Source: Tubiluchus corallicola
Taxonomy: Eukaryota > Priapulida > Priapulimorpha > Priapulimorphida > Tubiluchidae
DNA length: 64,000 nt
Assembly: GCA_030141605.1 (NCBI GenBank)
Contig: JAQGDQ010000159.1
Location: 228,501 to 292,500, forward strand
Reading direction: 5' to 3'
Shown: piece after piece, positions 3,754 to 42,141 of the stretch
Layout: each line of letters opens with the position of its first letter
Position numbering within the stretch: position 1 is the first letter of the stretch
Program-made: the position numbers and the translations under genes
Notes under the pieces: generated by a model
What the model saw: the letters and a program-made list of their open reading frames with translations, nothing else
What the model was told of the DNA's origin: nothing
Database searches by the model: none

Positions 3754-6700
3754 CTAATGACAATCCTTACAGTCTGCCTCACATTCACAGCTGAAATTTG
3801 TACCTGTCTCCGCTCTGCAGTCTGGACAGCTCTGACAGTTGTGGCTGTTGCTTGTTACCACAACTGGACTTTTCCTACCACTCTGACGTTCTTTTGCACT
3901 CCTAACTGGATTGGCTTGTGCTTGACTAAACCTCTGCCTTGACTGACGGATAATTTCTTTCCTTGCCAATTCTGGAATCTTCTGCTTTATTTTTTTGTTT
4001 ACCTTATTCAGTCGACTGAGTTTAATATAGAGGCAAACAGCGATTGTAACTGAGAGCAGAAGTATCGCCATAACTGACACTAACACTGCAATAAAGGCAT
4101 CCTTTGGTACACAGTTCTGTATCGGCACTTCTTCCAAACTTCTTGGGTTGTTCTCTATTCCTATAAAAATATTTTGTTTAATTAGTTTTTACACTCTTTA
4201 GAAAAGACTATTATTTTGTATAGAAATTAAAGTACTGCTTACCTTTATCTTCACGTGCTCCGGGAATTTTTACTTTGAATTTTTGAAATATTTTTTGATC
4301 CTCAATCACTTCTTCTGCATTATCAGGTTTTGTCTCAGTATCGTTGACTGCTTCTCTTTTGCCTCTGCCCAAAACTTGGCCCTTGACAGTCTCCTTACCA
4401 GCAAACGTTGCAAAGAACTCTGAGCCTGGTGAGGGCTGAGGTGGAGCATATCCTGGATAGGGTCGATCTTCACTGCAGAAAGGCTGCACGAAATATATCA
4501 TAAAATTGTTTAGTTTCAGAACTTGAAGAAAACGTAACATAATTAATGAATCAAAATATATAAAGCGTTTTTGGCTTCAATGAATTAGCTTATTAATATC
4601 CTTGTTTAATAATTATAAGGGTTTTAAAAAGTGTCAAAATCACATAACACAGCGCAGCAATTTATTTTGATTGTTTTGTGTAACGTCATATAATATAAAT
4701 GTATTTATTGCTGTACTGTTCTCAAGTAGTTTGATATTCACTTTCTGTAGTTTTGTTTGCCATATTGATTCTGGATGTTTACCTCGTAGAGGGAGCATAC
4801 GAAGTGTCGATCATAGCTAAGATATCTCTGCCAGCTTTGTGGCTGATCTTAGTCAATGAGATGAGGTATAGTGTTGATAATGAGTGAGGTTCTGGTTTTA
4901 TCACAGCCACCCAAATTAATTTAGTAAGTTCTACCATTTATGGCTAAATTGCTAAATTGTATAAAAAGGTGCTGTTTCAGAAGCACATAATTTATAAGAA
5001 ATTAGTAATGCTATCAAGACAAATCTTCTGAATAGGGAAGGTGGTCAAAGAGGGTGAAACTAGTGTTGAATTTGGACAGAGGCGCTCCCAGACTCCTGTA
5101 GACAGAAGTACAACACAACAGTTCGAACAGCTTTCATGTTAAAATCAATTGCAATACTTGCCAGTTCTTCACGTATTATGAAAGATAATGAAGATGAATA
5201 AAATGAGTTTTAACTAACCATATCACAATGAACCAGCTAGAAAGTATTAAAATTTAAATGACTTGAAGCATACCCTGCGACATCGATCATAGCAGACCAT
5301 GCATTGACATTGTAAATATACATCTTCTGCATCGGGAAACTTGAAAACCTAGAATAGAAGTTGTAAAAATTTAATGCTAAGATTCTTAGTTTTGTTTTCA
5401 ATATACTGCCAGATATCACCAACATTTGATTCTATATTAAGGGCGTAGTTTTTTATTGTACTTTACCTTGAAATGACTGTACATGTGGGTTTCACCAGGA
5501 TTGGTGGTGTGGTCGTAGACAGGCGGTTTTATAAATTTTGTGCTTGTTGGACAACCAGATTCATCCAGTAACTCTAACTTCGACTGTCCAACACCATCGT
5601 GACCATAACATCTTGAGACAAATATGTCAAATACTTCTGCAAAAATATTTTCTTCGACTTAATGAAAGTACCATATTTTAGTGAATGTGCAAATTTTAAT
5701 AAACACTATGCAGTATTGAACAATAAGGATTTACTAATTAACTTTATTAATTGAATTATTGATTGAAGTTCCATAGAATTATCTCATAATCTAGCTTACT
5801 ACATTTATGTAGTATTAATCTATCATCTACTTGTTTAATTTATCTAAAGTAGGTACTCGTCTACCTTTTGTAACTAAATGTATAAAATCTACCTTGTAAT
5901 CTGGAATAACATGGGACTCTGGAAGACAAATATTCTTCTTCTTCCAGTTGTACTAGCATAATTCTGTCAAATGAAGAACAAACCTTGTTGATTTCGAATA
6001 CTGACGTCCATAGTGGCTGTATCTCCTAATTCTAGAATGCGTGCGTCATTAGCAAATGGATCTGTTCCTGGAACTATTCTCAAGAAACAGTTTGGTACTT
6101 CAATTAGGCCGGGACGTACAAATACACTGCTTTCTTTTTCCAAACTGAAAAGAGACATTACCAGCTGCAAAGATAGATTGTAGTGAAAATAAGCAATGAT
6201 AGTAAAGAGAAGGAAGCTATGTTTTACATCTAGTCTCTGTCTGCTCTACATATTTTTCATATTATTGGACTTTCATGATAATTCGTAAGAAACACACAAG
6301 AATGCCTGTGTAGTCTTACGAACAAGCTCTTTGTTAAAGAAGCTTACAATGAATCAAATGACTAGTGATCCTTTTAAGTGTTGTTTGTCTCTGTAATCAC
6401 AGTCTTTCATAACGGATGTTTTCAGCATTTCTGATATTCAATATTGGTATGTTTACTTACGGAACTTGGACCCCCGAGTCAACAGTTCTGGCATGGGAAC
6501 CTGTCCACATACATGAAACTGTGTAAGCTCTGTCGTGCGTCTCCATAACGCCAAAAGCTGCATCATTCATCACTACAATCGTGTTGTTGTAAAAAACTTC
6601 ATCTTGGAAATTGTTTCCCTGCAGTAAACACAGTTTTTAGCCCAGATTTTAGCCAAACCCTTTTTTCAATTGCTTATATATGTGTGTGTGTGCTTCCGGT

Positions 6701-9700
6701 AGTTATCATTTTAGTCTAGAAATAATAGTTTTGTAGGTACTCATGATTATTGATCGAACTAAATTTATTACATGATAACTGCAGTTACTAATTATAAGTG
6801 CATTATAACGTACCCCAAATTGGAGTGATGGGATAGTATTGAAATAGATAACCATTACGACTTAACCCAACACCAAAATGTGCATAAAAGGGTAACATCT
6901 GACATTTTATGTATGCTGCTCTTGTATGGCTTCTGCAGATAACGCCTACACTACCGTGTGTGTGTACGTAGCTGATTTTTTCCCTATTTCTTAGGTCATT
7001 TGATCACAATCATGGGTAGTTTCTCATCACCTTATTTACGTTTTATTTTTGGAAACAAGTTGTCTAAAAAACGGCAAGTGAAAAATCGTCATTCAATTTG
7101 AAAAGCTCAGCGTTCATGCACGCTGTCTGCTTTTAGAGGAGCCTTCCAATTTTTGCGAAATTTTCAAGAAAATGTTTGAAAGGGCTTCCCGGTGATTACA
7201 AATTCATTGTGGAAACAAAAAAAAAGAAATGTGTATAAGATGTAAAAGTTTCTTTTTACAATACTACATCACCCTTCCACTGAACCAAATCAGAACGGCA
7301 TAATTTGCTATGCCATTTCGTGGATTCGCATTTAGAATTTACGATATGCTTATATATGCCTATTGTTGCTATGATGGCATTATCTCTGCTACGTGGGACA
7401 TATTTGCATTGTTGAACATTGGTGTGCAGATCTAATGGCGTTTTTTGTGTTATCGTGAAGAGTTCGTGCAGTTCTAACTTTGAATCCTGCTCTGTATGAT
7501 AAGTAAAGAAAAACAATGTAGAAGTCACCGAGAGTGCAAAAACCTAGAAAAGTATAAAATTACAAACTGAAGACACAAATAAAAATGACAGGTTGACTCC
7601 CAACACCAGCAGTCATCCCTGCGTACAAGATTGTACCGTTTTTACCACTTCTGTTCCACACAAGTCCATGGGAATGGCAATACGATGATGGCGCCCTCCT
7701 CTGGCTCTTACTCGACATCGGTCACTCTTGTAGTACCCTTGGCAGAAAACTATCCCATTGAAGTCATCGTCAAATTGCATGTCAACCAACATGACGTTAT
7801 TCTCGATGTCACACCCGACACGGATATCTGTAAATTGTATAGAATAAATTTGCGATTTGTGTAGAGAGATATTGCGGGATTAGTGTGTACATTGTTGTAC
7901 TGCACTCTGGTGTGCCTTGGTGTCTTCTCACGAATAACTTGGATTTTTTGTTGACAAATTGATTTTGATTCTAAAAGTCACTCATTATTAATTTATTCCC
8001 AACATTTTGACCTTGAATCCAACATCAGTTCAGGTTAATGTCAAATATGATCTACAGGATTATCTATATTAGCCAATTTAGATAGGAGTGCTAAAAATGC
8101 TGGGACTGAACTTTTGACACATTTGTCTGTCTAAATGGGTTTGAAGTGTATCTATCTAATTTGGTTTCCATTGTTATTACATATACAAGCTTACTTTGTC
8201 AATTTGCAATTAAATGCCAGCAAAGCAGTAAAAATAAATCTAAACCATGATGACTCCAATACGACAGTTGAATTTTCATCGTACACATCCATAATTTTCT
8301 TTATTTACCTTGTACGTTATTTCCCCTGTCATCACCCCATAACTCACTGTACTTTCTAGGAGGCGGTGTATGATCCAATCCTCTGACATCAAATCTATGA
8401 AATCCAGTGAAGGCATCAGTTGGTCGTGTGTTGTATATGTCGTTCTTTGATACCTGGAAACATGCACTATTTAAAAAGAGGCAAATCGAATAGCTTGGAA
8501 CTTATAACCGGTGAAAATTTGAACCCAAAAAAACTTGAAAATCATGCATTTTGTTTTGTGGATGGTATTTAGAGACAGCTTGTTTACTATAAACTAACTA
8601 CGATTGAATCTCATTAATAAGTTTTATTCCGAATTGACGGTTTTGTAAACTAGTGAGTTCACTTGTATAAAGTATGTGTAGTAACAGGTCTAACCTATAA
8701 AGTAAGTGTAGTAACAGGTCTAACCCTGTAGCCTGCGTTGACCCATTTTGTGCTCCTTGAGCACGATCAAAAAACTGTATTAGCTGTTCCTTTGATTTCA
8801 AAATGGGCTAATTTGTGAGACGAAGTAAGTCTTAACTAAGTTTTCTGCATGAGCAGGGTTAACTGAGTTTACTCAAATTATTGTTAGTGCAAAATTACTT
8901 ACCAGTGCTTGTTCTGGCTCTCTGGAAGGAATTTCAAATGAATCGATCTTTGGCAGCCTTGATTCAAACCTTGGAGTAGTTGTTTTTAATTGATCAGGGG
9001 TGTCTAGTGGCTGCAATAATTACATAAGCAAAAACTGTGTATAATCTAACGCCACTTTTCCATGTTGCATCGTAATGCCCAAATACTCGCACCACGGTAA
9101 TGAATTTTTAATGAATATCTTATACTGCTAATGATTTTTGAACTAAAATGTATTTGCATTTGTCTGAATAACAAGTAAATTCCGCTTATAGTCATCCGTG
9201 CCTTTAAATAAAATACCGTAAAACGGGGTGAGTTCGCCACCCCTTACGTAATGGCCATTGTAGGTTTGCTGTAACTATTGTTCAGTGTTTAATGAACAGA
9301 TATCATGATCACCGTCATTATAAACAGTTTGCGACAGTTATCTTCTTTCAATTCGCACTAGAAGTATTCCATTCTGCGCTACATGTTATTTGTCTACTGT
9401 TTCTTGCTACTTAACATGCCACGCGCCTGCACCCCTGTACCGGGTCATAGATACCAAAATTATACCCCAGAAGCTCTGGAAGCTGCCCTACATGCCGCCA
9501 AGAATATCAACAGGACAATCAGCGCAGCGGCGAGGCAATTCGGAGTTCCAAGAAATACCCTTTCTGACAAACTCTCAGGAAGTCATCCGCGGAAGACCGG
9601 AGGTCAGCCATTGTTCTCCGCCGCCGAGGAGCACGAAATCGCCAACACTCCAAGTGGCCGCTGAGTGGGGGTTCTTAATGACTGCCATCGATCTCCGACT

Positions 9701-12700: not shown

Positions 12701-15700
12701 GACAGGTCGCTTTTGCATTAGTTTTCGTTTGTACCGTGCAACCCACATGCAGTTTAGTACCAGTACTATACATGTACCTTAAATGTGAGGGTCTGATCAG
12801 AGTACCAATCGCCATTTCTTACCAGATTATTACAACTTTGGCAATTTTTTGGCAAATGTAGGCCGTTTGAGTGAATAATTTAGACTCAGAAATAAGAGTG
12901 CTGCAAGTAAGCTTGCGTGCTACAGTAATGACTTCAAATATGGGCACGCGAGTCTTGATAATTATGCTTAAGAACCCCGAAAGATCTTGTATATACGCAA
13001 CGTGTGAACGTACCACAGTGCCTTGTATTCTATAGTGTGTGAACGCAGGCGCGTGGATTGTCCGTTGACCGTTAACACATTCGACAATAGCATTCATGTT
13101 GTGTTTAGCACAAGTTTTGAAGTTTAAAAAAGTAAATAAAAACACCTAAGCCTATAGCTTATACAAAATACAGGGCGTGCTACAAGAAAGACGCGTATGC
13201 TGAAAGATCGAAGCTAATATAATCTTGCTTTCTATCTGCAATACGCAACGCATCATTATTGTTTTAATAAGCGATGGAGCACTAATTCAATAATGTATTT
13301 GACACCAACAGGCTAGAGTCCGTAAGCCTCGAAGCCTCTAAGCTGCTGACACGTTTGTCGTTAGGATGACAAGATTGTTTTAACATTCATTTAACATAAC
13401 CTTTTTATTGCATTTGCGAACATCGACTCGCGCGCTGGGTTGGGTCTAAGGAAAAATATTCAGAGTAATCCTTGACTCGACAATTTATAGACATTGGTAA
13501 GCGCTGAAGATACAAGATTGAGTTTTCCTAATGAGAATTCACGTCTATGTTTAAATTAAAGATAAACGAAATAAAACTTATGGTTGCTTTATTAAATGAA
13601 GTGATGAAACAAACCCATTTTATGACCAGCGTAAGATTCTGTTGTGTCGATGATTGTGTAGTCTGTTGTGTATGGCGTAATATCGAAGAAATCTATTGTT
13701 GAGGAAGCTTCGACATTATCGTTCGTTGTTGTAATAGCAACCTAAAATTATATTAATTATATTTAACTGACTTATTAGCCATGTAATAAACTATGTAATA
13801 GTTGTGAATCAAAAATGAATATAGACATATAGATACATTTTGCTTTACAAAATTTGCTTTACAACATTTCAGCAATTGAAAAAAGTTCTCATTAAATAAT
13901 TAATTTTGCCCTTGCCTAAAATAACCTTAGATGATTGTTAATGTCAAAAACATCTGATGGCGTAGTATATATCGTTAATATTTTTCTTGTTTACTGACAG
14001 AGATTTTGTTGCCAAACAAGTATATCTCCCCAGGAGTGATATTAAAAAGGTTAGTTGGCATAAAATGTGTACCTCTGGTGTTCTTAAGATTAAAGACAAT
14101 GTCATAATCTGCCGCATATTTAACACACAATGATCAATAAGTTTTTGTATTATACAAAATTATACATGGAGCCACAAGGCAAAGGTCATCAGTATAAATT
14201 GAAATTTTGCCAATACGACAAGTAGCTGACACAAATTTAGATAATTGTTTAGACAAGTCACCCACATAAACAGAAAAAAGTACAGGCGACAAAAAAACCC
14301 TTGACGTACGCCATTGCTAACACAAAAACTATATAATAAAGTAATTTACGTAAACTTTTAAATTAGCAGATATTTAAAACTGTATAGCTAGGGACTTGTA
14401 ACAGATTTGGTGAAGTTTAGTATCATATCTAGTATGATTCTTGATAAGCTATTATGCTCAGTAATTATAGCTGACAATTAATGCAGAAAAGTGAAATTTC
14501 ACGCAATTTGCTGTGTCGTTGCGGCATCGTACGAAACAAAACGTGTTTACAAACGGGAAGTGAGTAGATTAATTACGACTCTTCTCTTTACACACATCGC
14601 AAGTGAAAGCTTACTGCATATTGGAGCACAGACTCCCACCCACATCCGCCGCACCATCCCCACCCCCAGAGCAATACTTCCGTACCTGTAGCGCATAATC
14701 ATTAATTATTAGCAGCCTTAAACATGGTTTACGCAATGTATATTACATGTTTGGTGTTTTTACTGGTATAATAGCTTGAGGTAGCATGTGATTTCATTTA
14801 CGTAATTTTCGTTTGATTACATTGAATCATGTGTACACCATTTACCAGTACCGAAAAGAAAAGTAGGGTAATTCAGGTCAAATTTTACACTGTATGTTTA
14901 AGGATAAGCAGCGGGACTTTGGTTAAGTGGCCAGTCATTTATAGTGTGTATTTTTTCTATTTCACTTGAGAAGTCGTGAACACTGTTTTTACGTTCTATG
15001 TGAAACAAAATTTGTTTCAGGGTATGACTGGATTACCAACGCGAGGAATTTATAACCCGAAGCATTAGAAATCTACTTCGTTTTATCTGCGACAACTCAA
15101 TATTACTTAAAAGATATTTCATTTTGTAACCAAATGGTTTTTTAAAGCTTTGCAAATAGAAAACACCACATTATAACAGCGGATTGCCGGAATAAAAAGA
15201 ATGACAGAGGAAAAAGTTGACGGTCGACCTACAATTTTTCCTACTGCATTTGCAGACATATGTGAAAAGTGAAAAGTTGTTGTGCAGCAGTCAACATACA
15301 TATATATATATACATATTTTCTATTTGCAAAGCTTTAAAAAACCATTTGGTTACAAAATGAAATATCTTTTAAGTAATATTGAGTTGTCGCAGATAAAAC
15401 GAAGTAGATTTCTAATGCTTCGGGTTATAAATTCCTCGCGTTGGTAATCCCAGTCATACCCTGAAACAAATTTTGTTTCACATAGAACGTAAAAACAGTG
15501 TTCACGACTTCTCAAGTGAAATAGAAAAAATACACACTATAAATGACTGGCCACTTAACCAAAGTCCCGCTGCTTATATATATACGTTTAGAATACAACC
15601 TTTTCAATGGCTATTTATATGTATAAATTTATTTAACATTTACACATACTTTATCCATGTATGTATGTATGTACTTTTTGTATTTTGTGAAATATATATG

Positions 15701-15972
15701 TTGTTGATTATGATGAAAACGAAGAAGATGATGATGATAACGATAATGATGATAATGATGATGGCGGCGATGGTTATAATTATAAGAATAAAGAGGCAAA
15801 TGAAACCGCACTGAATTGATTATTTTGGCAGTCATATCCGTTTCCTAACCACGCTGAGCTTTGTTTGGTAAAAGTGGGGTAATAATAATCTTTGTTATGT
15901 AGTTGTAAAATTGTTATTTACAACTGACGAAAACCTTGTTGATCTTATGTTTCTTATTATATTATTATTATT

Positions 15973-16017
<45 letters not shown>

Positions 16018-16099
16018 ATTATTATTATTATTATTATTATCATTATCATTAGTGGTAGTAGCAGCAGCAGTGGTAGTAGTGGTAGGAGTGGTAGTGGTT

Positions 16100-16169
<70 letters not shown>

Positions 16170-19100
16170 CAGAAACAGCAGCAGCAGCAGCAGTAGTGGT
16201 AGCAGTGGTAATAGTAGTAGTAGTATCATTATCATTATCATTCTTATTATTATATTATTTGCATTACATTTACCATTATTGATATTATTGTCGCTAAGCA
16301 TACACCGCTACCAGCTAGCTATTTTTCTATCTGGATTCTCAAATGATCACCGGAAGTTTTTCAGTCAGAAGATTATCTCTAGTTTAAAGAGCACACTGAT
16401 ATAATATTAACACAATGCTGTATTGTACATCGTCACTATAACCTAATTTACCTGTTAATGTTACTTGTTAGAGCGCCAAATTGTTTATTAAGTGCGTAAA
16501 GTTTGCAAAACCAAACTTTTAAAGTTGGCATTCAGTATTATACAGCATTATGATAAATAGGACTTTTTAATATCAAGTGCTTTAGCGAGAAACGATGCCT
16601 TACCAGTTATAAAAGTAAGGAACAAAAATTAAAGTCGTACTATTAACATAATATAAGTGAAACAGAAATATGAAAACCAATAATCAAATTACATGCATTT
16701 GATAATAAACTAGAATATTAGTATAGGATTTTCAAATTATGTTTTTATTGGATTTGATCCAAAAGCAATCTATTTCAAGGTTGTACAAAAAGAAAACGAC
16801 TGGACTTTAATTATTATTGTTGCCATCATTCACGTAGTTTATTATGAGTCGGAATCTCCATTCAGTCTACAGCTAAGTAGAAGAAAGGTTCATTTGTTCT
16901 CTGCCGGTAATCATTTCTTGCGGCCTATGAAATATTGATATCCAATTACAGTACATTAGATTAAAATTTGCAAAAAGAAAGTGATCACAAATGAGATCAC
17001 GTATTTCGTGGAAAACTTATTAAAATAAAAATTCTTTTCCAGGAATCGCACAAATTTAGAGCAATCCGAATGCGCAAGCATAACTTGCACTATTCCGTTG
17101 TCATTGTCGCTGCACTTTTGACCTTTTGACGCTATTTAAAGGTCTTTTTTCAAGTGAGACTGAATTACGTCACGCATAGCGGAATCCAAATTAGACCAAA
17201 AAGCAGCAATAACAGGTGAACGCAAACAAAGTGTGTAATAATAAGGCTTTCACTTGTCACGGCTTATATCGAATTGGGCCATTATGTTTTATGTGCCTCT
17301 GATGTCTTTCAAATAGGTCGTTTTCTGTGTGCAGATTTCTTTTTTCTCTCCTCTGTTACCGCATTACATGCAAACCGCTCTAAGTTGAATGTATCAAAAA
17401 ATTATGTATTACTTTAGTGTTCAGTGTTCGTCATGACCATTATGTCAACAGTTTTGTGATCTGCTTCTTGTCGTACCTCTTAATCTTACTAGCTTCCTTA
17501 ATTTGAAATACGATAAATCTATTTGAATAGTTTTGCTTATTCTCTTTAATTGCAGCAACATTGCGGTACAGTAAAGTACAGCCATTTTATGTTTGGTATT
17601 TCACTATATTTCTGAGTTACTGAACAAACTCTTACTACAATTGAACTCTGAAGTTGCCATGGAAATTTTTCACCTTCAATGCCCAGAGCACTCAAACATT
17701 GATACCAAAGAAAAGCTGAAGAGCGGTCATCCATCCACCTACTAATTGAGTCAATATTCAGGTGACCATTCAACTATTTATCTCGTTTTCAAAGTGCACC
17801 CAATATAGTTTTCCAACGAGTGTTCAATATAGTTTTCCAATGTAAATTAATTTTAATCAAACTTTGTAATTTTTGCACATAGCTCATTCATTATAATAAG
17901 GTGACTGTAGATAAAATTAACAAAAATATATCCTATTAAGTTTATTTTCCACGGTTTCTACGACTACGCCAACACAATACGATGCACTGACACTCAAATA
18001 ATAGAGTAAAGAACGATTTTTTCACTAATTTTCACGGTAACATCTAGTAGGATTGAATAGTAATGTGTGTCTTATTAAATATGTAACAATACGCAACGAT
18101 CAATGTTCTGCTTGATTATTATTTTAATAGTTTTTTGCCGCATTTTCAGTCCACGAAAAGATATATTTTTGCATTTACAAAAAGGTTTATTCATTTAACG
18201 TTACTTGCTTATTTACTAGCTTACTTACTTACTTATTTACTTACTTACGCGCTTACTTACTTATACTGAAAAGGCTTACTCATTCAAAATTACTTGCTTG
18301 CTTTCATGCTTGCTTATTTATTAATTTACTTACTTACTCATTAACTTATCTGTTTACTTGCTTGTTTGTTTACTTACTTACTTAGTCGACGAGTGTACCG
18401 TACCTGACGCACTAATTGATCCAGTAGATTTTCAGTCTTGTAGGAAAAGGGCAACTAGGTAATCAAATCCCGGGGCTAACTGGCTATATGAATGCCACGC
18501 TGCTACAAAACACGATCCAATCATTTTACTCGCTCTATTTGTTCTAGCGATTATTCTATATGTAGCCTTGCCAATCTTCCTTGCGCTAAATCGTTCAAAC
18601 AATTTATCTAAGTAATGATTCTAGCTGTGAGGTTTCTTTGCGCGATTAACGTGCGATCGACACTATTATCGGAATATTGCACATTCTTAGAGTGGGGAGA
18701 AATGTTTGTTTCACTCGGCTTTTTATGTTTAAATTTTATTTAATGCATTATTCATTATGATTCTTTTTCACGTTTTGCATGCAACTCACCTCTAGAAACT
18801 TCAAAGCTGGTAGACTGAAATTTGGCACTGTAGCTGTATAGCAGGCCCTTATAGATCTTGCAAAACCGATATACAAAAATTGAGTCAGGTGGGCGATAAA
18901 GAAAATTGGGAACCCACTTTGGCCTATTTGCTGCAAAATGATAACAGGAAGCCCCAAGTTTTTCTGCATCAGCAGAATTTTGGCAACGCGTACAACCGTC
19001 TAAATCTCTATCTACTCATCGATAGGGTCACTCATACGTTGAACTTTTTCTTGCCTATCGGAAGAAAATGTTGTTGTATAAAAATTTTGTTGCGGTCTAA

Positions 19101-22100
19101 CTTTTGGCACATCAAAGATCATGTAGAATAGAAAGAGCGAAGTGACATACGAGAACAGTACCACATCAAGTTGAGGTTTATCTACTCTACTGTCGACGCT
19201 TTCAATGCAAAAGGGTCATCTGACTGTTCACATATACTAATTACTAGGAAACACAAATGGAAGAATATATTGTGTCCAGTTTTCAATTGACACACGAACT
19301 TAAAAGGCACGACCAATATATTATTGCCTAGATTACTGTAAACTTGAATTTCTCATGTCAACGTTTCTTGGGCATTATAACCGTTTGAGTGTCTGCCAGT
19401 GCCTAAATGAATTCCATCTTTTTCGGACATTAAGCGTTAGTTTATTGATATTATTACTATCTTAATTATGATGATTTGTTTCGTATTTGTCATTTTGGAT
19501 AATTAATTATGGCATTGTTTTGAATGACGTATTATTACCCTGCAAATTAAATAATTACAAAGCCTTAAGCCAAATTACAGAATCACAAACGAATTAATTT
19601 CGCACGTCACTATGTAACTCATCGCATTCACAATGCAGTGTAAGGCAAATAAACGGTTTTGTTATTAAAAATTTCACTAAAGGAAGACCTAAAATTTTTC
19701 TGAATAGTAAGCCAAATATTTTTATTAAATTTTTGGTAATATAGTAGCAAAATTTTTATATATTAAGCAAATGTACTCTTACACGACTAACGTCTCTGTG
19801 ATATTGTTAATAAGTAACTGTGTAATTAAGTTTAGCCGGTAGGTATATTTGCCTCTAATAACAAATCAAACTTTTTAGAGTCATTCTTGGTCACGTCCTA
19901 GTACAGTATTTGCAAATATTATTAATTAAACTGAAAACCACTACATTTTAACACTAGGTAACTTTTGTGTAAAATTAATGTTTGTATTTGTTTTTGTTGT
20001 TATGGTGTTTATAAAGGCTTATCGTGAAATAAACAGTTAGTTACTTATACTTACTAGTCGCAACGATTTTCCTAGTTGTGGGTTTAGTTGGGAGAAATTT
20101 ACATAACTTTAGAAAAGCGGCAAACCCACCTTGTATGTGAACTTGAAAATAAATCCTGTTAAGCATTTAATTACAAAAGGAAAACGAAGTTTATGGCTAG
20201 TTATTTAATTTTGTAAAGGAGGTGCTTTGGGTCGTTTGGCTCCTTTGATACGATTATAGTGTTTCGCAAGGTGTTTAGGCTTCTCGTGTTTTGGCGGGAC
20301 GGGAAGATTATTTTGTGGATTAAATTTGTCATTCAAAGTACCGCCTGTGCAAAAATGAGCAAAAATACAACTGACCCATACTTCACATACAGCACAATAG
20401 AGTCGACTGACCGAGACCCACTCAACGAAAATAATTGAGTCAGTAGACTAGTCTAAACCAGTGTCCTAACTGGCCCAGTTATACTCAATTAAGTTATTGA
20501 TATAAACTTCAATTTGTACTGCCTGCATTTGTTATGAAGATCAGTGTGTGCATTATAACTGTTCTGCCCTTAAGCGCAATGTGCACCGCAGTGACGCATA
20601 TAATCTATCACTTCCTGCGGTTTAACCTACAAAACATTTCCGTCCCTAAAACAAGCAAGGTTTTGTGCAAATTTCTGCTTCGGTTCTAATTAAGTGTAAC
20701 AGCCCTTTATTTAAGACGGTGAAATTCTTAGTAAAAAGTATTTCTGTATTGAGATTTTTGCAAAATAATAGTACAAACTTTCTACATTAGACCTGTAGAC
20801 CATGGAAAAAATAAAGTAATAGTATAAAATGATGTTGACTGCAGGTGTAGTTGATAATATGAAATGAAAAAAGATTGAAGCGCCTATGTAGCTAGTACCT
20901 TAACAAAATTTGATGCAGCACCACTATCATATTTTTATTAGCCCTGTAGAACTACTGGGAAATTAATTAAAGGACCAAGGTTTGTTGAAGAAAACCAGTA
21001 ATTATTATGATCTAGAGTTCAGAAGTGAGTAAACGGGAAATTGTTGCTGTCGTATAGTCAGTGATACCAAAATTAGGTTGATTCATATATATATGTATAT
21101 TATGCCTACATAATATATGTACCTGTACTCAGCTTTAGAAAACTGTAGAACTACTGGGAAATTATATATATAATAATTAATATATAATATTATACCTACA
21201 TCAGCATGTACTCAGCTTTAGAAAACTAATGTGCATGCTCTGAAAGCTTTTCGCTGTTATAGTACTAAAAAGAAGTTTATATGTTTGCCGTTTGTGGGAC
21301 ATTATTTCTTCTTAAATTCCGAACAAGTACTTAAATTCCGGGCTAAGTTGCACGGAATTGTTATCACTACATTTTCAGAAAAAATCGATTCCTTTTGTTA
21401 TAACTCGCGCAGCGAGAAAGTTCATTTCGCACAGAAACCACGCAGTTTTTCCGCTAGTCCAGTTAGCTCCAGTCATTGTTTTTATTGGTGGCAATTTATA
21501 CAAACTGTACGAATCATATTTAAAAAATTTATTTATAAGACCAGTTCATTTCTAGGGTAGCCACTAACAACTTCATAGATGAGCATGGATAAATAATGAT
21601 TATATACATGTGTTGTTTATTTGTTTTCGTGAATGTAATAATAAAACAAAAGAACCGTTTATACAATAAAAGATAGATTAACAAGTTATATAATATTTTT
21701 ACCGAAATAGGTTAATTATTGTGCAGTAAATAAAAAAGAAGTAACTGAGCAGTTAACTTTTTATGTGAACTTCGCGCGGAATCCTCACGAAAATGGAGCA
21801 TACTGCATTTCTATCAAGTTGCAAATTTCCTTGTGACGAGCATGCGAATTCTTCACGAGCATTCTACGAGAAATGTTCCTCATGAAGCGTCTGCGTGAAA
21901 TGTGCCATAGAAAGCAATGTGTTTCATTTTCGTGAGCAATGCTGCAAAGAATTTTTCCTCGTTGAATTTTACCGCGCGTTCTCTGTGTGAAACTGGCCCT
22001 GCTGGACAATAACATACCGGCGATTGGCCGTATTGCTGATAGAAGTTTTTTAATGCTTCGAAATCTTTCTTACACAGTACTCTTCATTTATTATATCAGT

Positions 22101-23129
22101 GTATTAGTAGCCCTTTTCGTCAAATTTCTCTCACGTTGCCCAGTTACTTTTTGAAATCCTACATAGTTTCCACGAAATTAATTACCCTTTCCCGGTTTTG
22201 TAGTTTATTTTTCCTTTGGTTTTGCGCATTTGCTTTATTTCTGTTTCTGTTTAGCAGAGATGGAGAGATCTTTGGTGGGAAGTGTTACTTTTCAGCAATG
22301 ACTTCAGGTTAGCAGTTTTCTTGCTCTTTTTTCGCATCTCCCTTACATTTAATGAACGAGTTACAAATCACTGGCGCGCAACTTACTTCTGTTTAAAATT
22401 TCATTTAAGTTATAGAAATATTTGCAATATTTTAGAATTAACGACGATTTTCTGTTGCTCGAGATTGGTCCATGCTACACACAGTTGTGAAAATTGTACT
22501 TGGTATACATTGCTTGTTAACAATTTTTTTGATAATATCACATTGTGTTACAAAGCCGTCATAATGCACCAAGTTATTTCGCCAGGTGTATTGTAACCTT
22601 TGGAACGCTTGTATGATCACATTCTGTGCGATTATGAGTTCACTTTTCTTTTATTACAATCCATCAAACACGTTTTAACAATAAAGGCTATCTGCTGCAG
22701 CGATTGCTCGTGCCAGGTTAAAATCGTATTAATAACAGTGAAAAAGAATAAAAGATAATTTAGTACACAACGGCGCTAGCTGTAGGACTTAATATTTTCA
22801 CTAAATTCAAAGTTTTCGTCAGAAATGTGGATCAAAAATTGGGTACGTTTCATAACTTAGATGGACTTTAATTAAGAAAACCTGTTTTTGAACACTTTCA
22901 ATAACATCAGTCGAATAACTAAGAAATAATGATAATGTTAATAATTATGATGGTAACGATGATAATGACGGCAATGATGACGGTCGAGACCACGATAACG
23001 GCGAAGATAGTAATGACTGACGACACTGACACTAGATAATCAATAACTAGATAAGACAGTATATTGTATACTACTTACTTGAAGAAATAATAGAGAAACA
23101 ACGCATAGGACACCGACTACAGATGCCAT
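3754..23129 (-). CDS. ZP-domain single-pass transmembrane protein, complete, 15 coding exons, 1070 residues
   Basis: Exons in transcript order are 23129-23079, 13741-13615, 12359-12255, 12126-11533, 11331-11119, 10732-10257, 9010-8903, 8453-8309, 7827-7646, 6618-6461, 6144-5984, 5636-5467, 5348-5274, 4483-4243 and 4160-3754. They sum to 3213 bases and all phases agree. Residues 1-17 form a signal peptide. Residues of about 18-605 are a Pro/Gln/Asn/Tyr-rich low-complexity ectodomain with FNPF and FNPY-type motifs. A ZP domain follows (about 607-865), with ZP-N landmarks IRVGCDIENN and IPMDLCGTEV and ZP-C landmarks RIVPG, ESGCP, FKFPDAEDVYLQCQC and CYDRC. RGKR at 895-898 is a furin-type cleavage site, the membrane span is about 957-980, and a tail of about 90 residues ends Cys-rich. 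Such proteins polymerise in apical matrix or cuticle and anchor it to epithelia. The donor of exon 4 (CCA|GTACGT at 11533) is the least certain junction. A strong acceptor 13 bases before the ATG implies a 5' UTR intron; CAAAG|GTAAGT at 23987 is a candidate donor for it. Confidence 0.88.
4243..7827 (-). other. ZP domain and furin-site module (exons 9-14 of the ZP gene)
   Basis: Exon 9 starts the ZP-N half (GCDIENNVMLVDMQFDDDF, then CQGYYKSDRC and the IPMDLCGTEV end). Exon 10 carries the conserved strand around YNNTIVVMND and the Cys in TVSCMW. Exon 11 begins ZP-C (PNCFLRIVPG, LGDTATMDV). Exon 12 holds the FVSRCYGHDG and ESGCP segments, and exon 13 the dense cysteine set LQCQCMVCYDRC. Exon 14 gives the last Cys (PFCSED), a Pro-rich linker and the RGKR site, followed by a moderately hydrophobic FKVKIPG segment that may be the polymerisation-blocking propeptide seen in this family. 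Cysteine number and spacing fit a functional bipartite ZP module. Confidence 0.88.
8666..8725. repeat. Two-copy 30-bp tandem repeat in ZP intron 7
   Basis: Two adjacent 30-base units (8666-8695 and 8696-8725) differ at one position. They end in GTAACAGGTCTAACC and lie between exons 7 and 8 of the ZP gene. Confidence 0.9.
9216..10166 (+). mobile_element. pogo/Tigger-like DNA transposon, internally deleted, in ZP intron 6
   Basis: The element has terminal inverted repeats of about 24-26 bp (CCGTAAAACGGGGTGAGTTC at the left, its complement ending GTTTTATGG at the right, one mismatch). It is flanked by TA on both sides (9214-9215 and 10167-10168), the duplication expected of the Tc1/mariner/pogo superfamily. 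Shorter copies of the GGGGTGA-ATTCGCCAC core recur inside near 9940 and 10025. The interior carries only the N-terminal part of a transposase and no DDE catalytic domain, so it is non-autonomous. It is inserted antisense to the host gene. Confidence 0.85.
9416..9902 (+). pseudogene. pogo-like transposase N-terminal fragment, frameshifted
   Basis: Reading starts at ATG 9416. The first about 80 residues contain a pipsqueak/CENP-B-type helix-turn-helix (YTPEALEAALHAAKN, ISAAARQFGVPRNTLSDKL). A frameshift near 9650 moves the reading to the next frame, which continues AAEWGFLMTAIDLRLVIKSV, GIDFVKSFARRNN and RVAGNIKGARN, the second DNA-binding (CENP-B-like) region of these proteins. It stops at 9902 just before the DDE domain should begin, so the protein could bind ends at most, not cut. 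Confidence 0.8.
13975..14312 (-). pseudogene. LINE reverse-transcriptase fragment (palm region) in ZP intron 1
   Basis: Read on the minus strand, the fragment has GVRQG, then after a one-base frame change LSPVLFSVYVGDLSKQLSKF, and the catalytic motif IYTDDLCLVAP (normally YADDL). A TGA follows, and then the frame resumes with CVKYAADYDIVFN and GEIYLFGNKI. This order (GVRQG, LSP-LF, YxDD, C-YA-EYDI-FN) is that of non-LTR retrotransposon polymerases, probably CR1/L2-like. The frame change, the in-frame stop and the truncation make it a dead copy. It lies in the same orientation as the host gene. Confidence 0.72.
14904..15577. repeat. Long foldback: 260-bp inverted repeat with a 153-bp loop
   Basis: Bases 14904-15163 are the reverse complement of 15317-15577 with, by eye, a single one-base indel (GATTACC against GGTAATCCC). 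The loop is 15164-15316 and ends in a short TA run. The arms code for nothing recognisable. It lies in intron 1 of the ZP gene, so the pre-mRNA would form a long, almost perfect RNA duplex. A foldback transposon, a recent inverted duplication or an assembly artefact are all possible origins. Confidence 0.88.
15959..16250. repeat. Compound trinucleotide array (ATT/GTT/GTA/GCA)
   Basis: Successive runs of ATT, TTG, ATT, GTA and AGC-type triplets follow each other for about 290 bases. Long Leu, Val or Thr open frames here are artefacts of the repeat. It is in ZP intron 1. Confidence 0.93.
16300..23078. other. Rest of ZP intron 1; no further gene seen
   Basis: I find no exon with splice sites or a recognisable protein motif. 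Contents are an imperfect (CTTA)n array at about 18196-18385, local duplications at 20943-21230 (a 22-base block CTGTAGAACTACTGGGAAAT recurs about 200 bases later, and a block with TACTCAGCTTTAGAAAACT recurs about 90 bases later), and a GAT-rich tract near 22928-23030. A phase-0 micro-exon could still be hidden. Confidence 0.5.
18196..18385. repeat. Imperfect (CTTA)n tetranucleotide repeat
   Basis: Interrupted CTTA/TTAC units run for about 190 bases with point changes to CTTG, ATTT and TTTG. Confidence 0.85.
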
Positions 23130-30090: not shown

Positions 30091-30180
30091 TAACCTTAAC
30101 CCTAACATTAAACCCAATCCTAACCCTAACCCAACCCTAACCCTAAACCTAACTCCAATCCGAACCCCTAACCCTAATCC
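30091..30180. repeat. Degenerate interstitial telomere-like (CCCTAA)n
   Basis: About a dozen units of AACCCT and close variants (CCCTAAC, AAACCTA, AATCCG) run for 90 bases. It is the C-rich strand of a TTAGGG telomere repeat embedded in unique DNA, suggesting either an old break repair or telomerase-mediated insertion. Confidence 0.75.
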
Positions 30181-32043: not shown

Positions 32044-35000
32044 TTACTGCTCACGTGAATTGTTTTTGTTAGAATTCGATGTTTCAATCAAACCTATTTT
32101 TTGTGCAAATTTCGTGCATTTTGACGCAACTTCCTCTTGGACTAAATTGAAACACATAGATATGAGTGCAAGTCCTACCAATAAGTAAAGCGCACAGGTA
32201 GCTAGTTTCACCTGCGCTCCGCCGCCCTGTGATAACACCGACGCACCCGGTACAAAATCACCGAAGCCAATCGTGCTCAAGGTCACGAAACAGAAGTAAG
32301 CTCCATCCAAAAAGTTCCACTTCTCCCACATTGCAAATATAAAAGCTCCTAGTAGAATGTACAGCACCACTACCGAGAGACAAAGCGACACCGGAACTGT
32401 CACTTTGTGCAGTTGGTAATCGGAATTCTGGTAAATGTGTTCATTGCTTGAAGTTTGAAGTTTGCTGCCTATGTTGGCGACAATTTCCTGTAATTCCACG
32501 CAGTGACACTTTTCAGCATGTTCACATGATGCACTCACAGCACCTGGGTTGCTCAACGAATTCCCATTATTGACCTCGGTCTTTTTTCCCTTGTCTCTAG
32601 TTTTTAGCTTGTTGTAATGGTGTTGGCATGCCGCGTAGATGTATTTGAATGCGTGTGCCATTACGTCACCAATATTGGCTAAGCACAAAAGCATGACTGG
32701 AATTCCAACTAATGCGTAGATGATTGTCACCACTTTGCCTGTATTGGTGCGAGGTGCTAAGTTTCCGTAACCTGAGAAACAAAATAGATTTTTAATAAAA
32801 ACACGGCCAGAGTGTTCTGCAACTGGCATACAACCAAAATAGGATGGACTAATATAATCAGATTTGAAATTTTATTTTAGACTTAAAATTTCAAATCTGA
32901 TTATATTAGTTATTTATTTTTAATTTTAATTTTAATATCTTAATTAATTGATAATATTGAAATTAGGATTCTATGTGATTAATGATATTGCAAGTTAGTG
33001 AGGGCTGCTGCAAATTAACTAAGTAACCTTCCGAGGTTCGAGCACCAGCATTTCGGCTTCGTTACGCCCATAGTATGCATGTTTTGAGGTCAGCATCGAA
33101 AGTCGAATTTAATTTCACAAAGAAATGGCGGAGAAATAACACTTTTAAATTTTCTGGGTTGACCGCCAAAAGTAATCGCTAAAGAGGGAAAAATCAAATA
33201 ACACGTCACTGTTTACACGATCAAATGATTTGTTTGTGTCAAGAAAGCAGGTATACACTGGAGTATTACTTTTAACATACGATTGAATTAATTTCTTGTT
33301 CAGTCTCTATCTTCTAATTTGAGTAAACTAGCATCAGGAATGACGGATTGAATAATAAGCTCTTGGGATTGAATTAAGCTGCCCTGTATTAATCCCAAGG
33401 GACTATGTAGGCTTGTTATCCAATACCTTGCAGTTTTGACCGAAATATATTTAGAGTTGTTCAGTATCCAACGGCTAGTGGAGTCCATTTGACCAATGAG
33501 TTTGTAAATAGGGGTTTTGTCGTGCGGCAGTTTTGTGTAAAATGAATTAATGCAAAAAAAGTTTCTGGTTAAACTTCGAATTTAAAATTTGATTATCAAT
33601 GCTCTTCCAACCCACTTACAAATTACGATTCAAAACTAGGTAGCCAACTCGTATACTTATTTCCTTAAGAAAAGTCATGCCAACAATCGTTTGGTTTTCC
33701 CTGATTTGCCTGTAAATTCAGAAGCCGATGTAATTTAGGGGTTAAGCCGAAAGCTATAAGCCAAAATAAAATTTGATTATGAAAAGTTTACACAAACGTT
33801 ACAAGTTTTTTCTGAAAGCACAACACATTATTTAAGTTTACCGTCATGACAGATTTCCAATTTCTAGCACGATTATTGTGTTTCCACCTCATGCGTTCAG
33901 TTGCTTCTAGTTCAGTAAACGTAATCGATCAGTTCTAAAAACTGACGCCATTTCTAGAACATTTGCTAATAAAACAAAGAATGTATTCTGCACACTTGAT
34001 AAGATCTCTCTAAGTGACTACAAAACTCATTTTTGTGGTTTCACCTCCTCTTAGCACACTGAATATTCAATTAGATAAGTCAATAACCCTCGCGAATTAA
34101 TCACTGCAGTTTATAGCTTGTTGAAGGAGGACCATTAAACGCTGTCCTAGCATAACTCGATAGCCATTGCGCAACATACTATTTGCATTGTATAGTTTAA
34201 TCACTGTGAGTGTGTAGTCCTATCATCATTGACTAATTCAACTGACAGCCAGTTCGAAACCAGTTTCATAAATTGAAGTTATCGAGATTAATATGGCAAT
34301 GTTATGGACCTGAATTACGAAATTGCCAGTTGCAGGCTGCAGCCTCATACATACTAGTAAATGAGGAACAGAATAAGTTTTGCTATCTTGAATAAGACTG
34401 GTGTGTGCAGAACGACTGTGCAGAATGTTAAAAGGTGTTTAGTGAAGATTACAAAATAGGTTTAGCTGCAATACACTTAGTCTATCATGTGCAGCTAGCG
34501 ATACGTTAAAAAATGTAAAAATGAAAAAAGACTGTATAGTGATGCTGCTTATTCTTGCTTGTCTTCTCTTTTGTTGTTCGTTCGTTCGTTCGTTCATTTT
34601 TTTCGTTCTTTCGTTCGCCCATTTGCCTAAACGTGCTTTTTCTACAAAAATTATGGTAACACAGATATTTTGCCGTTACTTAAATTCTTATTTAAACAAT
34701 TTATATCATCCTCTATTACAATGGGTAGCTGGAATCAATTATATAACCATATACCCTGATTAATTACAGAGAATCTCGATTTATGGTGTTGCGCGAGTAA
34801 CTGATTAACGCTATATTACACTATTGTAACTATTTACAGGCGTATCACTCATTATTCTATAATTAATCGTTGGTCATTAATAATACATTGGCTTAATTGT
34901 TCGCCCTTATAATAATTTTGGTTTTTATAATTATTAATATATCGTTCATAAAACTGCTATAAACATCAAAACGGACTGCGTTATTCTACCAAGAATTAAT

Positions 35001-38000
35001 CGTAGAAGGATCAAAGTGGTGACGTAAATTAAATAGTCCAGTAATTTGGTTTTATTTGATTTGGTAGTACATTATTACGCAGCACAAAAGAATTTATCAT
35101 TACTAGTGCCCAGTAATGATACATATAGCCTAAAAATATGAAAATGTGCAATAAGAAACATATAGAAACTGTAAAAGCTAGTTCGTTTTCATACGAACGT
35201 GTGGTGAGTGTCTAGTGACATGTTTGCTATTCAACGGCGGTTTTTTTTATCAACAATTCTGTCCAAATCGAATTAGAGACATTTATTGGATTGGGCATGA
35301 AGTGCGTGCTCTCATATTGTCGTTGTCGTCCTCGACGTGGTTGGTAATGTTGTTTTAAACATTTATCTCCAAAAGCTATCACAGGCTACAGTTTTCGTCG
35401 CAGGAGGCTAAATTTTGATTTAAGATACTATGGCCCATTGCGCAGACCGCAACAGAGCCTGATTTTTCAATTTCTTAAATGTGCCTGTTAAATGGACCAT
35501 GTCTGCTAAATGGATTTGCCCAACAATGAAATTGTTACATTGGTGTGGTTTCTTTTATTCTAATGTATAAATGGATACACCCCAACAATGCGTATACTAA
35601 ATTTTTATTAAAAAACGTCTATAGTAACGGTAAGTGCTTCATATGATTTTCTTAAGGAAATCACTAACTTTACAGGAAATGAGCAATTAGGGCGTGCCGG
35701 ATCAAAGCCCATTAGTGCTTCCATTCTAGTTACTCCGCAGTTACATGTAAGTTAACTGTAAGTTACTTTTCATATTTGTCGAAACGGTTCAACCTGACCC
35801 AGTACTTTGTTTTGTTTCTTACTTAAATTGCCAAAATTAATCTAAAATAACACGAAAATAGCCGAAAAATGAAAGTGATGCAACGACATCTATGAGAGAA
35901 AGGTAATTTTTTCATTAACCATATATATAAAAATAGAGATTTATCAATGGCAGAATTCTTCATTGTCACTTATCCAACTGCCAAGTAGAGTCAGTGATGT
36001 TAAGTAGTCTTCTATGTGCCCGCGGCCCAAACTAATTTAGAGAATTAAAACTGCAACGTTCCAGTCTCAAACGGCAACTTTGCCATTGTTTACTTAGAAA
36101 ATGAATGAAATTACTAATATTTATGAATTTACTGTCTACTGAGTACTCTCTTGAATTGGCAAAATGTTATTCGTGTGTCCTCTTAATTTGATTAATGACA
36201 TTCAAATAATTACAACAATTCGTAGGAGAAATGTCGGCTGTTTTGTTAATTTGTTATTGCGAGGGTAGAGGAATTTGACTAGAAAAACTCAAATTTTGCA
36301 ATAGTTTTTTTGGAATGATCTAAAGAGGAAAACATCGTCATGACTATCCATAATATTTTTGCTAGAAATTGTCTCTTTACTTTTGACGCGTAAGCTCAAA
36401 TGAACAACTCAATCTTCTGAGTGCAATTTAAAGCTTATTTGTTTAAAAGGTTTAAAAACATACCGTGAATGCCTGCAAAGTGGTTTTTTGCTCAAATTGT
36501 CTTAAATGCTAATAATGCTGAATGCATTTTCGCACGGGCACTAGTTTTGTAGTAAATGTTTTCGAATTGAAGCTTTAATATTTTATGACGTTTCGCGTAA
36601 TAAAATACGCATACAGTAAATTTATGCTCTGATATGGCAAGTCGGGGGGCTGATTTCGCTACAGGTCGTTTATCCAGGAGCTTACCGGCAGTTCTTCATG
36701 CAGAAATTGTTTTTTTTGTGGTTGGTGCGTGGGTTTCTAAGAAGTTTTATGCAAAGTTCCTAAATTCCGTTTTGAAGAACTGATGCAGGCTGCAGTAGTA
36801 GTCTAAAAGCACCCCCAGTTTCTCAAAATCCGCCCTCTTGGCTAAGCTGCTGATCCTTGACGAAGCCTGTCAGACCGACCATTAGAATGTATTTGTGCAC
36901 TGTCTCGGTAGATGTGAACGTGGCAAGTCTGCAAGAATTGTTTGGGCTTTAAATGCTTCAAACTCCTGCAAAGCGTTGGCAAACTTTACTCAAACATCCA
37001 TATTCGTTTTCACGTTTTACGCCAGAAGTGCATAACTCTTGATCAGCACGAACATGTAAATACACATGCTGAAAGCATTTCGAATGCATTAGGACATTTT
37101 AAGACTGAAATTGGAACCCTAACAGGTTTCCGCGTTGACCTTGCTCATACAAAAGTCACATTCCTGTCAGCTATCAAAGCATAAGAGCTGACTGAATTGA
37201 TAAGATCTGCTAAATCACGTTCTCAGTATAAAGTCTGTCTGGTGTAAACACGAATAAGCTTTGGTAAAAATTCTTATGAATCTCGTCTTTTTAATGTGAA
37301 ATTTCCAAAAGTCGGTTATCACGTCTCATTTTAGAATTTTGAACTGAAGGATTTTAATAAATGAAAAACATAATATGCACCTTATAGAAAAATGTCAGTA
37401 AATAGGCAATATATCTCATCACGAAATATACATATAATAGCTTTTTTTGCCAAGTGATCTTAAATTTTAAGTTGTAATAAAAATTATAAACAGAAAACGT
37501 TTAAGCGATTTTTTAGCTTTTTTATGTGTTTTAAAAGAGATCGATATTGTATAGACATGCTAAAATGGGCAAGTTTTTGTATTTTTTTATTAGAAAATTC
37601 ATGTAAGCCTGCCCGTATTAATATGTGGGTGTTTATGTTTCAAACGAATAAAAATTCCACATTGTACATAGGCCTACTCACCTATTGTAGTGATAACTGT
37701 TATGGAAAAGAGAAGAGCTCCAGAGAAACACCACTGCGCCTGCCCCTCACCTGGATCTTTGCCATCGTATCCTTCTCTCAAAGCCCTCACGACATTCCTT
37801 TCAAACCTCTGAAGATTATTCAACGCTTCGGCCGTCCAATTCTCATAGTAAAACACGTTTAAGTCTAAAGTTAAATCCCACAAATCTTTTGCTACAGATT
37901 CTCTGTAATCTATCATCTTTAACTTTTTCTCTGTCTCGAAAGGACTCTCAATAGCCTGAAAGATTAACCCACCAGCGATAGTGTAGCCAACCAACACAGC

Positions 38001-38186
38001 CGAGAGTCCAACTTGAGAAAATAAGGCAGCAGCGAATCTAATGCCGTATTGCTTAAACTTGTCACAATCTAGCTGACATCTGCAGCAGCCGTCGTTGTTC
38101 CTGATGCAGGTGAGCCCGCAGGTGTGTCCACACAGGTAACGCTTGCCTGTCCCAACTTTCTTGAACGAAAATACCATCTTATCCAT
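32044..38186 (-). CDS. Two-pore-domain potassium channel (K2P/KCNK family), complete, 410 residues
   Basis: Exons are 38186-37682 and 32771-32044; the intron (phase 1) falls inside the first Gly of the P1 GYG. The protein has a cytosolic N-terminus with seven Cys in residues 19-41, M1 at about 51-79, an extracellular cap with an N-W-T glycosylation sequon (116), P1 filter TTIGYG (166-171), M2 at about 181-204, a long cytosolic loop, M3 at about 294-316, P2 filter TIGFGD (335-340), M4 at about 358-380 and a short C-terminus. Two M-P-M units and both filters are intact, so it should conduct K+ as a dimer and set resting potential. The TIGYGN and STIGFGDFVPG filters resemble invertebrate TWK/sandman-like and TRESK-like channels; the exact subfamily is uncertain. 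The start codon has a good context (GCCATGG), and no in-frame ATG further upstream was needed to complete the fold. Confidence 0.93.
32848..32910. repeat. Perfect 27-bp inverted repeat, 9-nt loop, beside the K2P splice acceptor
   Basis: 32848-32874 is the exact reverse complement of 32884-32910, separated by TTTTAGACT. It is AT-rich and lies 77 bases from the exon that starts at 32771, within the only coding intron of the channel gene. In the pre-mRNA it would form a stable hairpin near the branch point and acceptor. Confidence 0.95.
33110..33310 (-). pseudogene. LINE reverse-transcriptase fragment (fingers/palm) in the K2P intron
   Basis: The minus strand reads QSYVKSNTPVYTCFLDTNKS followed by FDRVNSDVLFD. 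This matches the V-(Y/C)-FLD-(x)3-AFD-x-VN-(x)2-L motif that carries the first catalytic Asp of non-LTR retrotransposon polymerases. Stop codons and shifts interrupt it on both sides. A further related reading (EAEMLVLEPRKVT) appears down to about 33020. Confidence 0.65.
33311..37681. other. Rest of the single coding intron of the K2P gene
   Basis: No exon or nested gene is recognised. A short (TTCG)n run lies at about 34577-34618. The 80-residue frame at 36942-37184 shows no family motif. Confidence 0.5.
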
Positions 38187-39016
<830 letters not shown>

Positions 39017-39560: not shown

Positions 39561-41849
39561 TCCTTTAGTCGTACTACGGCTGACTAAAGGACTCGACGAA
39601 AAGAAAAAAACCAGAAAGGTTGGCCAGGCGGCTAGTTTATTTTGGCTTAAAAGACAGACCGGATGATTGCGTGAGTTTCTTTTTTAGCATTTTAAACTCT
39701 CGCAGAGCTTTAGCAAAGGGATGGTCAGCTTTTTGAATTTGTAAATATGTTGAAAGTATCTCCTAGTAAGTAAGGATAATTTAAGACTGAAGTTGAAACA
39801 CCAACGTTTCGATCTGTGTTGAACGTACTTTCACAAGAATTCCTGAATTGCCACCCCCCCCCCCCCCGTATATTATACTAAGTACTAAGTATCCATAGTG
39901 TCATCATTTTCTAAAGTATTTTGAAAGCATCTTCATTAGTATATTAGTCTCGTTCACCAGTGTAAATGTGCTGTCAAAATTTCAGTTTGGTTTTAGGAAA
40001 CCAAATCAACGCAACTGAATAGGCGATACCTTGAACTTCCTGAATTTGGGGCACTGCATCTTGGTTGTTGATGCTATCTCCTGTTGACGTTGCAGTCATT
40101 GTGTTGCAGTAGTCGCCTCTAGCGATTTCCTAGCAGTTGTCGCCATGGCCATTAACGTTGTTGGAGTTGCCGCCATTGCCATTGCCGCTATAGTTTTCTT
40201 TGCTACTGCTGCCGTCGCCGATGCGTTTGGTTACCGAGAAATTAAGAATAACACATATGCATGTGTTTGTGTGTGAGTGTGCGTGTGCGTGCGTGTTTCG
40301 CGTGTGCTAGTGGAAGTTCTTACTTCTAAACAAAATTTATGTTAAATTTACAAAAAGTGTAAATCAACAACAAATTGGCAAAAATAACAAACTATTGACC
40401 ATTTTGTATTTCGGTGATTCTGTTGGACAGTTGAGTTACTTCATGCATGTTTGTAACTACATTTAACGCAATGAAAGTGGAAAAGACGTAAATGTACCTA
40501 AATTGAAACTTGACGTTTCGGAAATAATATGGTATTACCCACCAGTTTGACCGGTTAACACCGTCTACGCTAGGAAGATTTGCTACGAAATTGCTTAAAA
40601 ACCAATTTTGATTGGCATCAAAAACGAAATAAGGAATTTCCAGGCGGTTAGTTTCGATACTCATATTTTAGTTAATATTTTGAAAGATCTTGTCAGCCTA
40701 ATAAAGTTGTGTACAGATCTAGCAGCGTTTTTGCAAACCACATTAAGAAGTCATATAACAAATATAGCGTATAACAAATATTGTTTTCGATAGACCACAA
40801 AGAGAAAAAATCAAAATGAAAGCATTTGAGTGAAGACAGCAGTTGATAGAAGACGCGATTAAAGAAGTAACTGAAGGAGAATAAAGAAATGCAGGGTAAA
40901 CACAAAAGGAATAACCTTTAATTGAAAAATATGTAAAATCTTAGTAATGCTATTAATAAAAGCACAGATGACGTTCAAAATCTGAATAATAATTATAAAA
41001 TGACAAAAGAAAAAAGAAATGATTGCAGAAACTGTCATTTGTAACTTTTGTAAGACTTAGCTGCATAAACATTTTTTGGAATATGAACCGCGTTGCTTTT
41101 GCTTATACACATGTAGTTTTATGAGCGCTATAATCTGTGAGTAATGTGCTGTCTAATTAATGAGAACAAATGATAGAGGAATTTTGTTTTAATTTGCTAC
41201 CTGTCTTTCTCATTCTAATAAAACAGGAAACGCATTTTTTAATTTGCCTGCCTAACCTGTTTTTTATTTATGTTATAGTTGTTTACATAACTAATATTAT
41301 GCCAGCGTGATTCTGCGGTTTTGTGGCATGCATTTCAATTCTAAAGTCCCCAGGGCTGCACGACTTGGACTGGATCCAGTTACCACCAGGGATTTTCATA
41401 GGACACTTCCTGAATTCATGTCAACCTTCAGCGTTGATTTAAGACTCCAAATTTAAGTTTATCACTTGTTTTTGCAGAAGAGTCTATACTTGAGAGGACT
41501 GCAACTGAATTATACTGTTTTGGACTGATTTAAAACTAGATTGAATGTTGCGAATTTAAGTAGATTTTTACTTTTTGATCGCGCTTATAATCAAGTAATT
41601 TAGTGTCTGAGCGTCTCCCCACATCATTGATTTGATGATTTTTTGGATAAACAAATGTTTTCAATTATTTGTATTTGTGTTTCTATTTGTCTTTATTCCT
41701 TCAACAAAAAACATACAGTTACAGAAAAAGTGCAAAGTATAAATATCAATATTAATGTATATAAAAATTCAGTTTGTTGAGTAAGGAAGGCACTTATTGA
41801 CTGCGTGTGACGTGAAATAAATTAACAAATATTAGCGACAGACTGGGCG
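39561..41849. other. Gene-free stretch
   Basis: No exon is seen. A C16-type homopolymer lies at 39852-39867, and GCC/ATT-rich imperfect triplets at about 40065-40230 are followed by a GTGT run near 40260-40310. Confidence 0.5.
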
Positions 41850-42141
41850 AATAGAATAGAATAGAATAGAATAGAATAGAATAGAATAGAATAGAATAGA
41901 ATAGAATAGAATAGAATAGAATAGAATAGAACACAATAGAATAGAACAGAACAGAACAGAACAGAACAGAACAGAACAGAACAGAACAGAACAGAACAGA
42001 ACAGAACAGAACAGAACAGAACAGAACAGAACAGAACAGAACAGAACAGAACAGAACAGAACAGAACAGAACAGAACAGAACAGAACAGAACAGAACAGA
42101 ACAGAACAGAACAGAACAGAACAGAACAGAACAGAATAGAA
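41850..42141. repeat. Pentanucleotide array (ATAGA)n then (ACAGA)n
   Basis: About 18 ATAGA units (41850-41945), a short mixed zone (ACACA, ATAGA), then about 38 ACAGA units to about 42135, with ATAGA again at the right end. One sequence class changes to the other by a single T/C difference. The (FCSVL)n-like frames are artefacts. Confidence 0.96.

Follow-up and report, generated by a model that had tools for sequence, protein, structure and literature searches.

A near-perfect 674-bp foldback in a predicted cuticlin/ZP-type intron, most likely a young relic of mobile DNA rather than a dedicated regulatory RNA

In the aphid LTIR group of Tc1/mariner transposons (DD40/41D), autonomous elements are reported to carry terminal inverted repeats (TIRs) of 460 and 466 bp, and the MITEs derived from this group are given as 411 to 441 and 790 to 822 bp long (PMC5490172). 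A considerable share of bivalve genomes has been attributed to MITEs (PMC10294476). For repeats that are transcribed into double-stranded RNA, a comparison of 22 profiled species describes A-to-I editing as acting primarily on double-stranded RNA from evolutionarily young repeats, with sense-antisense pairing also important in some lineages (PMC9989829). Proteins of the endo-siRNA pathway are reported as lost, in part or in full, in Trochozoa (PMC11114477), and a mollusc survey reports no evidence for a dedicated siRNA pathway (PMC12479628).

The DNA analyzed here is a single stretch of 64 kb, referred to below as the window. It contains a near-perfect inverted repeat of 674 bp, at positions 14904 to 15577, that is able to form one long hairpin. 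Its parts are as follows.

14904 to 15163, plus strand: left arm of the foldback, 260 nt, located by local alignment of the region against its own reverse complement, by a repeat finder, and by blastn.
15164 to 15316, no strand: loop of the foldback, 153 nt, delimited by alignment and blastn, with no second copy in the window.
15317 to 15577, minus strand: right arm of the foldback, 261 nt, the reverse complement of the left arm bar a single 1-nt indel.
14905 to 14906, no strand: TA at the left tip, which may be a TA target site should the element start with AGCAGCGGGAC; being palindromic, it does not count as independent evidence.
15575 to 15576, no strand: TA at the right tip, the counterpart of 14905 to 14906.

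Local alignment against the reverse complement found 260 of 261 columns identical, with 0 substitutions and one 1-nt indel. The indel sits in a short G run, which reads GG in the left arm and GGG in the right (on the left-arm strand). An earlier note on this DNA had placed the foldback, with its 153-base loop, at exactly these coordinates and had remarked on the near-absence of arm divergence; both observations were reproduced. With no substitution at 260 aligned sites, the arms diverge by at most 1.1% (95% upper bound). The repeat finder divides the foldback at the indel into a 149-nt and a 134-nt pair, the former taking in some 20 outer columns of which only about half pair. The arms end sharply on both the inner and the outer side, as do the TIRs of a MITE or other non-autonomous TIR DNA transposon, and the flanks outside them show weak pairing at most.

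The foldback is present in the given sequence and lies far beyond chance. Its longest exact arm segment measures 134 nt, whereas all 20 dinucleotide-shuffled versions of the 64-kb window, scored over the same 2-kb span, had longest exact inverted matches of 13 to 17 nt. When the foldback and 18 tandem-array stretches were masked, the longest inverted match left in the window was 27 nt. With the foldback alone masked, the next longest was a 49-nt match in a CT microsatellite.

The host gene model places the foldback inside the predicted 9.3-kb first coding intron of a minus-strand cuticlin/ZP-type gene. This placement follows from joining exon 1 (23129 to 23079) to exon 2 (13741 to 13615) with the reading frame kept. 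The pieces of the model are listed here.

23079 to 23129, minus strand: predicted coding exon 1 of the ZP/cuticlin-type gene, with signal peptide MASVVGVLCVVSLLFLQ and donor CAA/GTAAGT.
13742 to 23078, minus strand: predicted intron 1, 9.3 kb, which holds the foldback.
13615 to 13741, minus strand: predicted exon 2, whose frame continues into 12359 to 12255 and then from 12126 to the ORF end; its donor, GTTTGT, looks weak.
5437 to 7879, minus strand: ZP-domain coding pieces of the host gene, with CUT_N above and ZP-N just below the cut-off (four joined pieces) and CUT_C weak and below the cut-off.

Exon 1 was sought among ATG-started, hydrophobic, leader-like exons on the minus strand between 11400 and 31000. 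The scan gave 12 candidates, and a GT[AG]AG donor was present in only one, 23129 to 23079. Joined to 13741 to 13615, 12359 to 12255, and 12126 to the ORF end, this exon yields one open frame of 312 codons. The frame is kept by two of the five exon-2 donors tried (13615 and 13627), neither of which looks strong. The earlier assignment of the foldback to the first intron of a ZP gene thus holds on the predicted gene model, in which the frame is kept over four exons. At the domain level, four predicted exon pieces, trimmed by eye and read together as one sequence of 208 residues, scored 36.9 bits for CUT_N (cut-off, 27) and 24.6 bits for ZP-N (cut-off, 24.7). Taken singly, the minus-strand ORF at 7613 to 7879 matches Pfam CUT_N below the cut-off, the minus-strand piece at 5437 to 5658 gives a weak CUT_C match that is also below the cut-off, and 6457 to 6636 has no Pfam match. 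Between the minus-strand ORFs attributed to the ZP gene lies a plus-strand ORF (9362 to 9664) with a Psq-type helix-turn-helix (PF05225; E 8.1e-6), which we take to be a probable fragment of a pogo-like transposase. There is no copy of the foldback tip near this fragment.

Several other repeats and ORFs were recorded in the window. About 1 kb at 50777 to 51810 is bounded by arrays in inverted orientation, whose unit of roughly 40 nt includes the palindrome TGGTTATAACCA; this segment resembles a decayed element whose ends are tandem repeats, and the 94-amino-acid ORF within it (50935 to 51219, plus strand) has no Pfam match at an E value of 0.01. A degenerate, telomere-like TAACCC array occupies 30091 to 30177, and a long array of the pentanucleotide GAACA (58.6 copies, 97% match) occupies 41849 to 42141. 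A minus-strand ORF at 32044 to 32871 carries an ion-channel domain (PF07885), and its upstream end is overlapped by a 63-nt near-palindrome (89%) at 32848 to 32910. By eye, the ORFs at 37674 to 38282 (minus strand) and 57064 to 57696 (plus strand) resemble the starts of two-pore potassium channels, with no Pfam match at an E value of 0.001. The segment from 32044 to 38282, together with 57064 to 57696, may represent a channel cluster.

We consider it somewhat probable that the foldback arose by a single, recent insertion of a non-autonomous DNA element, either a long-TIR MITE or one of the foldback type. Equal arms, sharp ends, weakly pairing flanks, and a loop that has no other copy in the window together give it the anatomy of a TIR element. 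On this reading, the element would be short, its terminal inverted repeats very long, and its insertion site the first intron of the ZP/cuticlin-type gene. Showing no gene of its own, the element would have been mobilized by a transposase encoded elsewhere, and either the insertion would be recent or the arms would have been held alike by gene conversion. Arm identity can be explained either by recent origin or by gene conversion, and the data do not separate the two.

The aphid MITEs are near analogues of such an element. Like them, the foldback measures hundreds of bases in total (674 bp), has long TIRs, and shows no coding capacity, and the TA at both of its tips is compatible with TA-targeting elements (PMC5490172). 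Unlike the aphid LTIR elements, it has an arm of 260 rather than about 460 bp and a tip sequence that differs from the aphid LTIR tips given in that source (PMC5490172), and it is known from one locus, where no independent target-site duplication is recognizable.

Comparison of the arm, the loop, and the flanks with the 64-kb window by blastn returned the two arms as the only long matches; the remaining matches were 13 to 23 nt for the arm and 14 to 17 nt for the loop, and a flank piece also matched GAT/TGA-type microsatellites. The 20-nt tip likewise occurs in the window at the two arms only, with up to 3 mismatches allowed. Exact 20-, 22-, and 24-mers had no match in viral_contigs or genome_contigs, and blastn of the 674-bp foldback had none in phages or plasmids; as none of these collections covers animal genomes, the results carry little weight.

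No target-site duplication was recognizable: over offsets of −3 to +12 from the tip, exact direct matches were no longer than 2 bp. The exact flank matches at the tips are TA or AT. Because the tips are palindromic, such a match is automatic and does not constitute independent evidence, and 30% of the 4-mers of the intron contain a TA. Among imperfect flank repeats, the best matches at 8 of 10 positions, lies 3 nt outside the arms, and includes an exact TA; it stands at chance level, being equalled or beaten by 691 of 5,000 random intron pairs. The tips fit no terminal motif that can be named with confidence, in keeping with the remark in the earlier note that none was seen.

Target-site duplications are 9 bp long for elements of the Mutator or foldback type, 8 bp for hAT, and 6 bp for Polinton, while piggyBac duplicates TTAA. 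Exact flank matches of only 1 to 2 bp disfavor all of these assignments. Some Tc1 elements are marked by an IR/DR arrangement, in which the tip recurs as a direct repeat within each long TIR. The arm shows no such repeat, its best internal match being no better than in shuffles (287 of 500 scored at least as high), and this arrangement was rejected. Kinship of the tip with the ends of pogo/Tigger elements was set aside on account of the AG that stands between TA and CAG in the tip.

The main rival to a mobile element is a one-off local inverted duplication, in which a template switch during replication or break repair set a reversed copy of a 260-bp intron piece next to the original, leaving one native arm and one copied arm. 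We regard this explanation as possible but tentative. It agrees with the failure to find another arm or loop copy in the 64-kb window and with the lack of a recognizable target-site duplication or terminal motif. It also agrees with base composition, since the GC content of the arm (33.1%) does not differ from that of the intron (33.3%, foldback included) and the arm is therefore not foreign-looking. A simple foldback copy, however, would not have to leave sharp ends, or a spacer of 153 bases that occurs nowhere else in the window; these features weigh against the duplication without excluding it.

The very high identity of the arms could also point to an assembly artefact or a chimeric foldback read, particularly as they differ solely by a 1-base indel within a run of G, which is a common type of error. 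We consider this improbable. In a foldback read, the sequence would continue as the reverse complement of the flank upstream of it, whereas the outer flanks here pair weakly, and no further copy of the loop is present in the window.

A different kind of explanation is that the foldback is a selected gene of the hpRNA type: Dicer would cut its intronic stem into siRNAs of 21 to 22 nt, these would silence a matching gene or transposon, and this function would keep the arms alike. In arm length and complementarity, the foldback equals a long RNA hairpin. Folding predictions gave −482.8 kcal/mol for the plus strand (shuffle mean, −140.2) and −480 kcal/mol for the minus strand (shuffle mean, −141.5), with 20 shuffles for each strand; by predicted folding, then, it has the extended RNA hairpin of an hpRNA locus. 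The hpRNA loci of Drosophila are described as inverted repeats, some with gene or transposon fragments, and the foldback resembles them as a long near-perfect inverted repeat in a predicted transcript (PMC10317233).

Other observations make a selected hpRNA gene unlikely. All six reading frames of the 674-bp foldback are interrupted by stops. The one ORF compared with Pfam, on the plus strand at 15431 to 15814, starts inside the right arm and extends into the flank, and it gave no significant match (best E value, 0.12). Neither arm has a long match elsewhere in the 64-kb window, which therefore offers no candidate target. Zero divergence is equally expected of a very young repeat. If the host is a trochozoan, moreover, the pathway itself is reported as lost in part or in full (PMC11114477, PMC12479628). 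Separately, a scan of the window with 4,227 Rfam families returned no match at the gathering score. The foldback had been called a typical precursor of hairpin-derived endo-siRNAs, and that claim is weakened by the absence of a Pfam match in the ORF, by the stops in six frames, and by the reported loss of the pathway if the host is a trochozoan. More doubtful still is a newborn hairpin-RNA locus in the ZP/cuticlin first intron, with a stem that is processed and silences a paralogous or mobile target and arms kept identical by selection or gene conversion.

The foldback is thus most likely a young, small relic of mobile DNA rather than a dedicated regulatory RNA. Transcription of the host gene would produce an RNA stem of about 260 bp, which in nuclear pre-mRNA is in principle a good substrate for ADAR. 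Most likely, the stem would undergo A-to-I editing by this enzyme, be discarded when the intron is spliced out, and serve no specific function. Such editing is plausible by comparison with ADAR hyper-editing substrates formed by young inverted repeats, with which the foldback shares a long, intramolecular, near-identical duplex, here in a predicted pre-mRNA; the likeness differs in kind from the others drawn above, as editing is a fate of such RNA and not a family of loci (PMC9989829). What the sequence shows is the two arms, the loop, the potential to form a stem, and the predicted position in an intron; we infer the mobile origin, the youth, and the editing of the foldback.

As a single locus, the foldback is an ordinary kind of object. 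Should it be a young MITE, it would be a sign of recent DNA-transposon activity. It would also place a long, naturally occurring double-stranded RNA in an intron that is transcribed, and so offer a test of whether the host edits such RNA, dices it, or ignores it. The fate of this double-stranded RNA would be of interest in a host whose clade is reported to lack endo-siRNAs.
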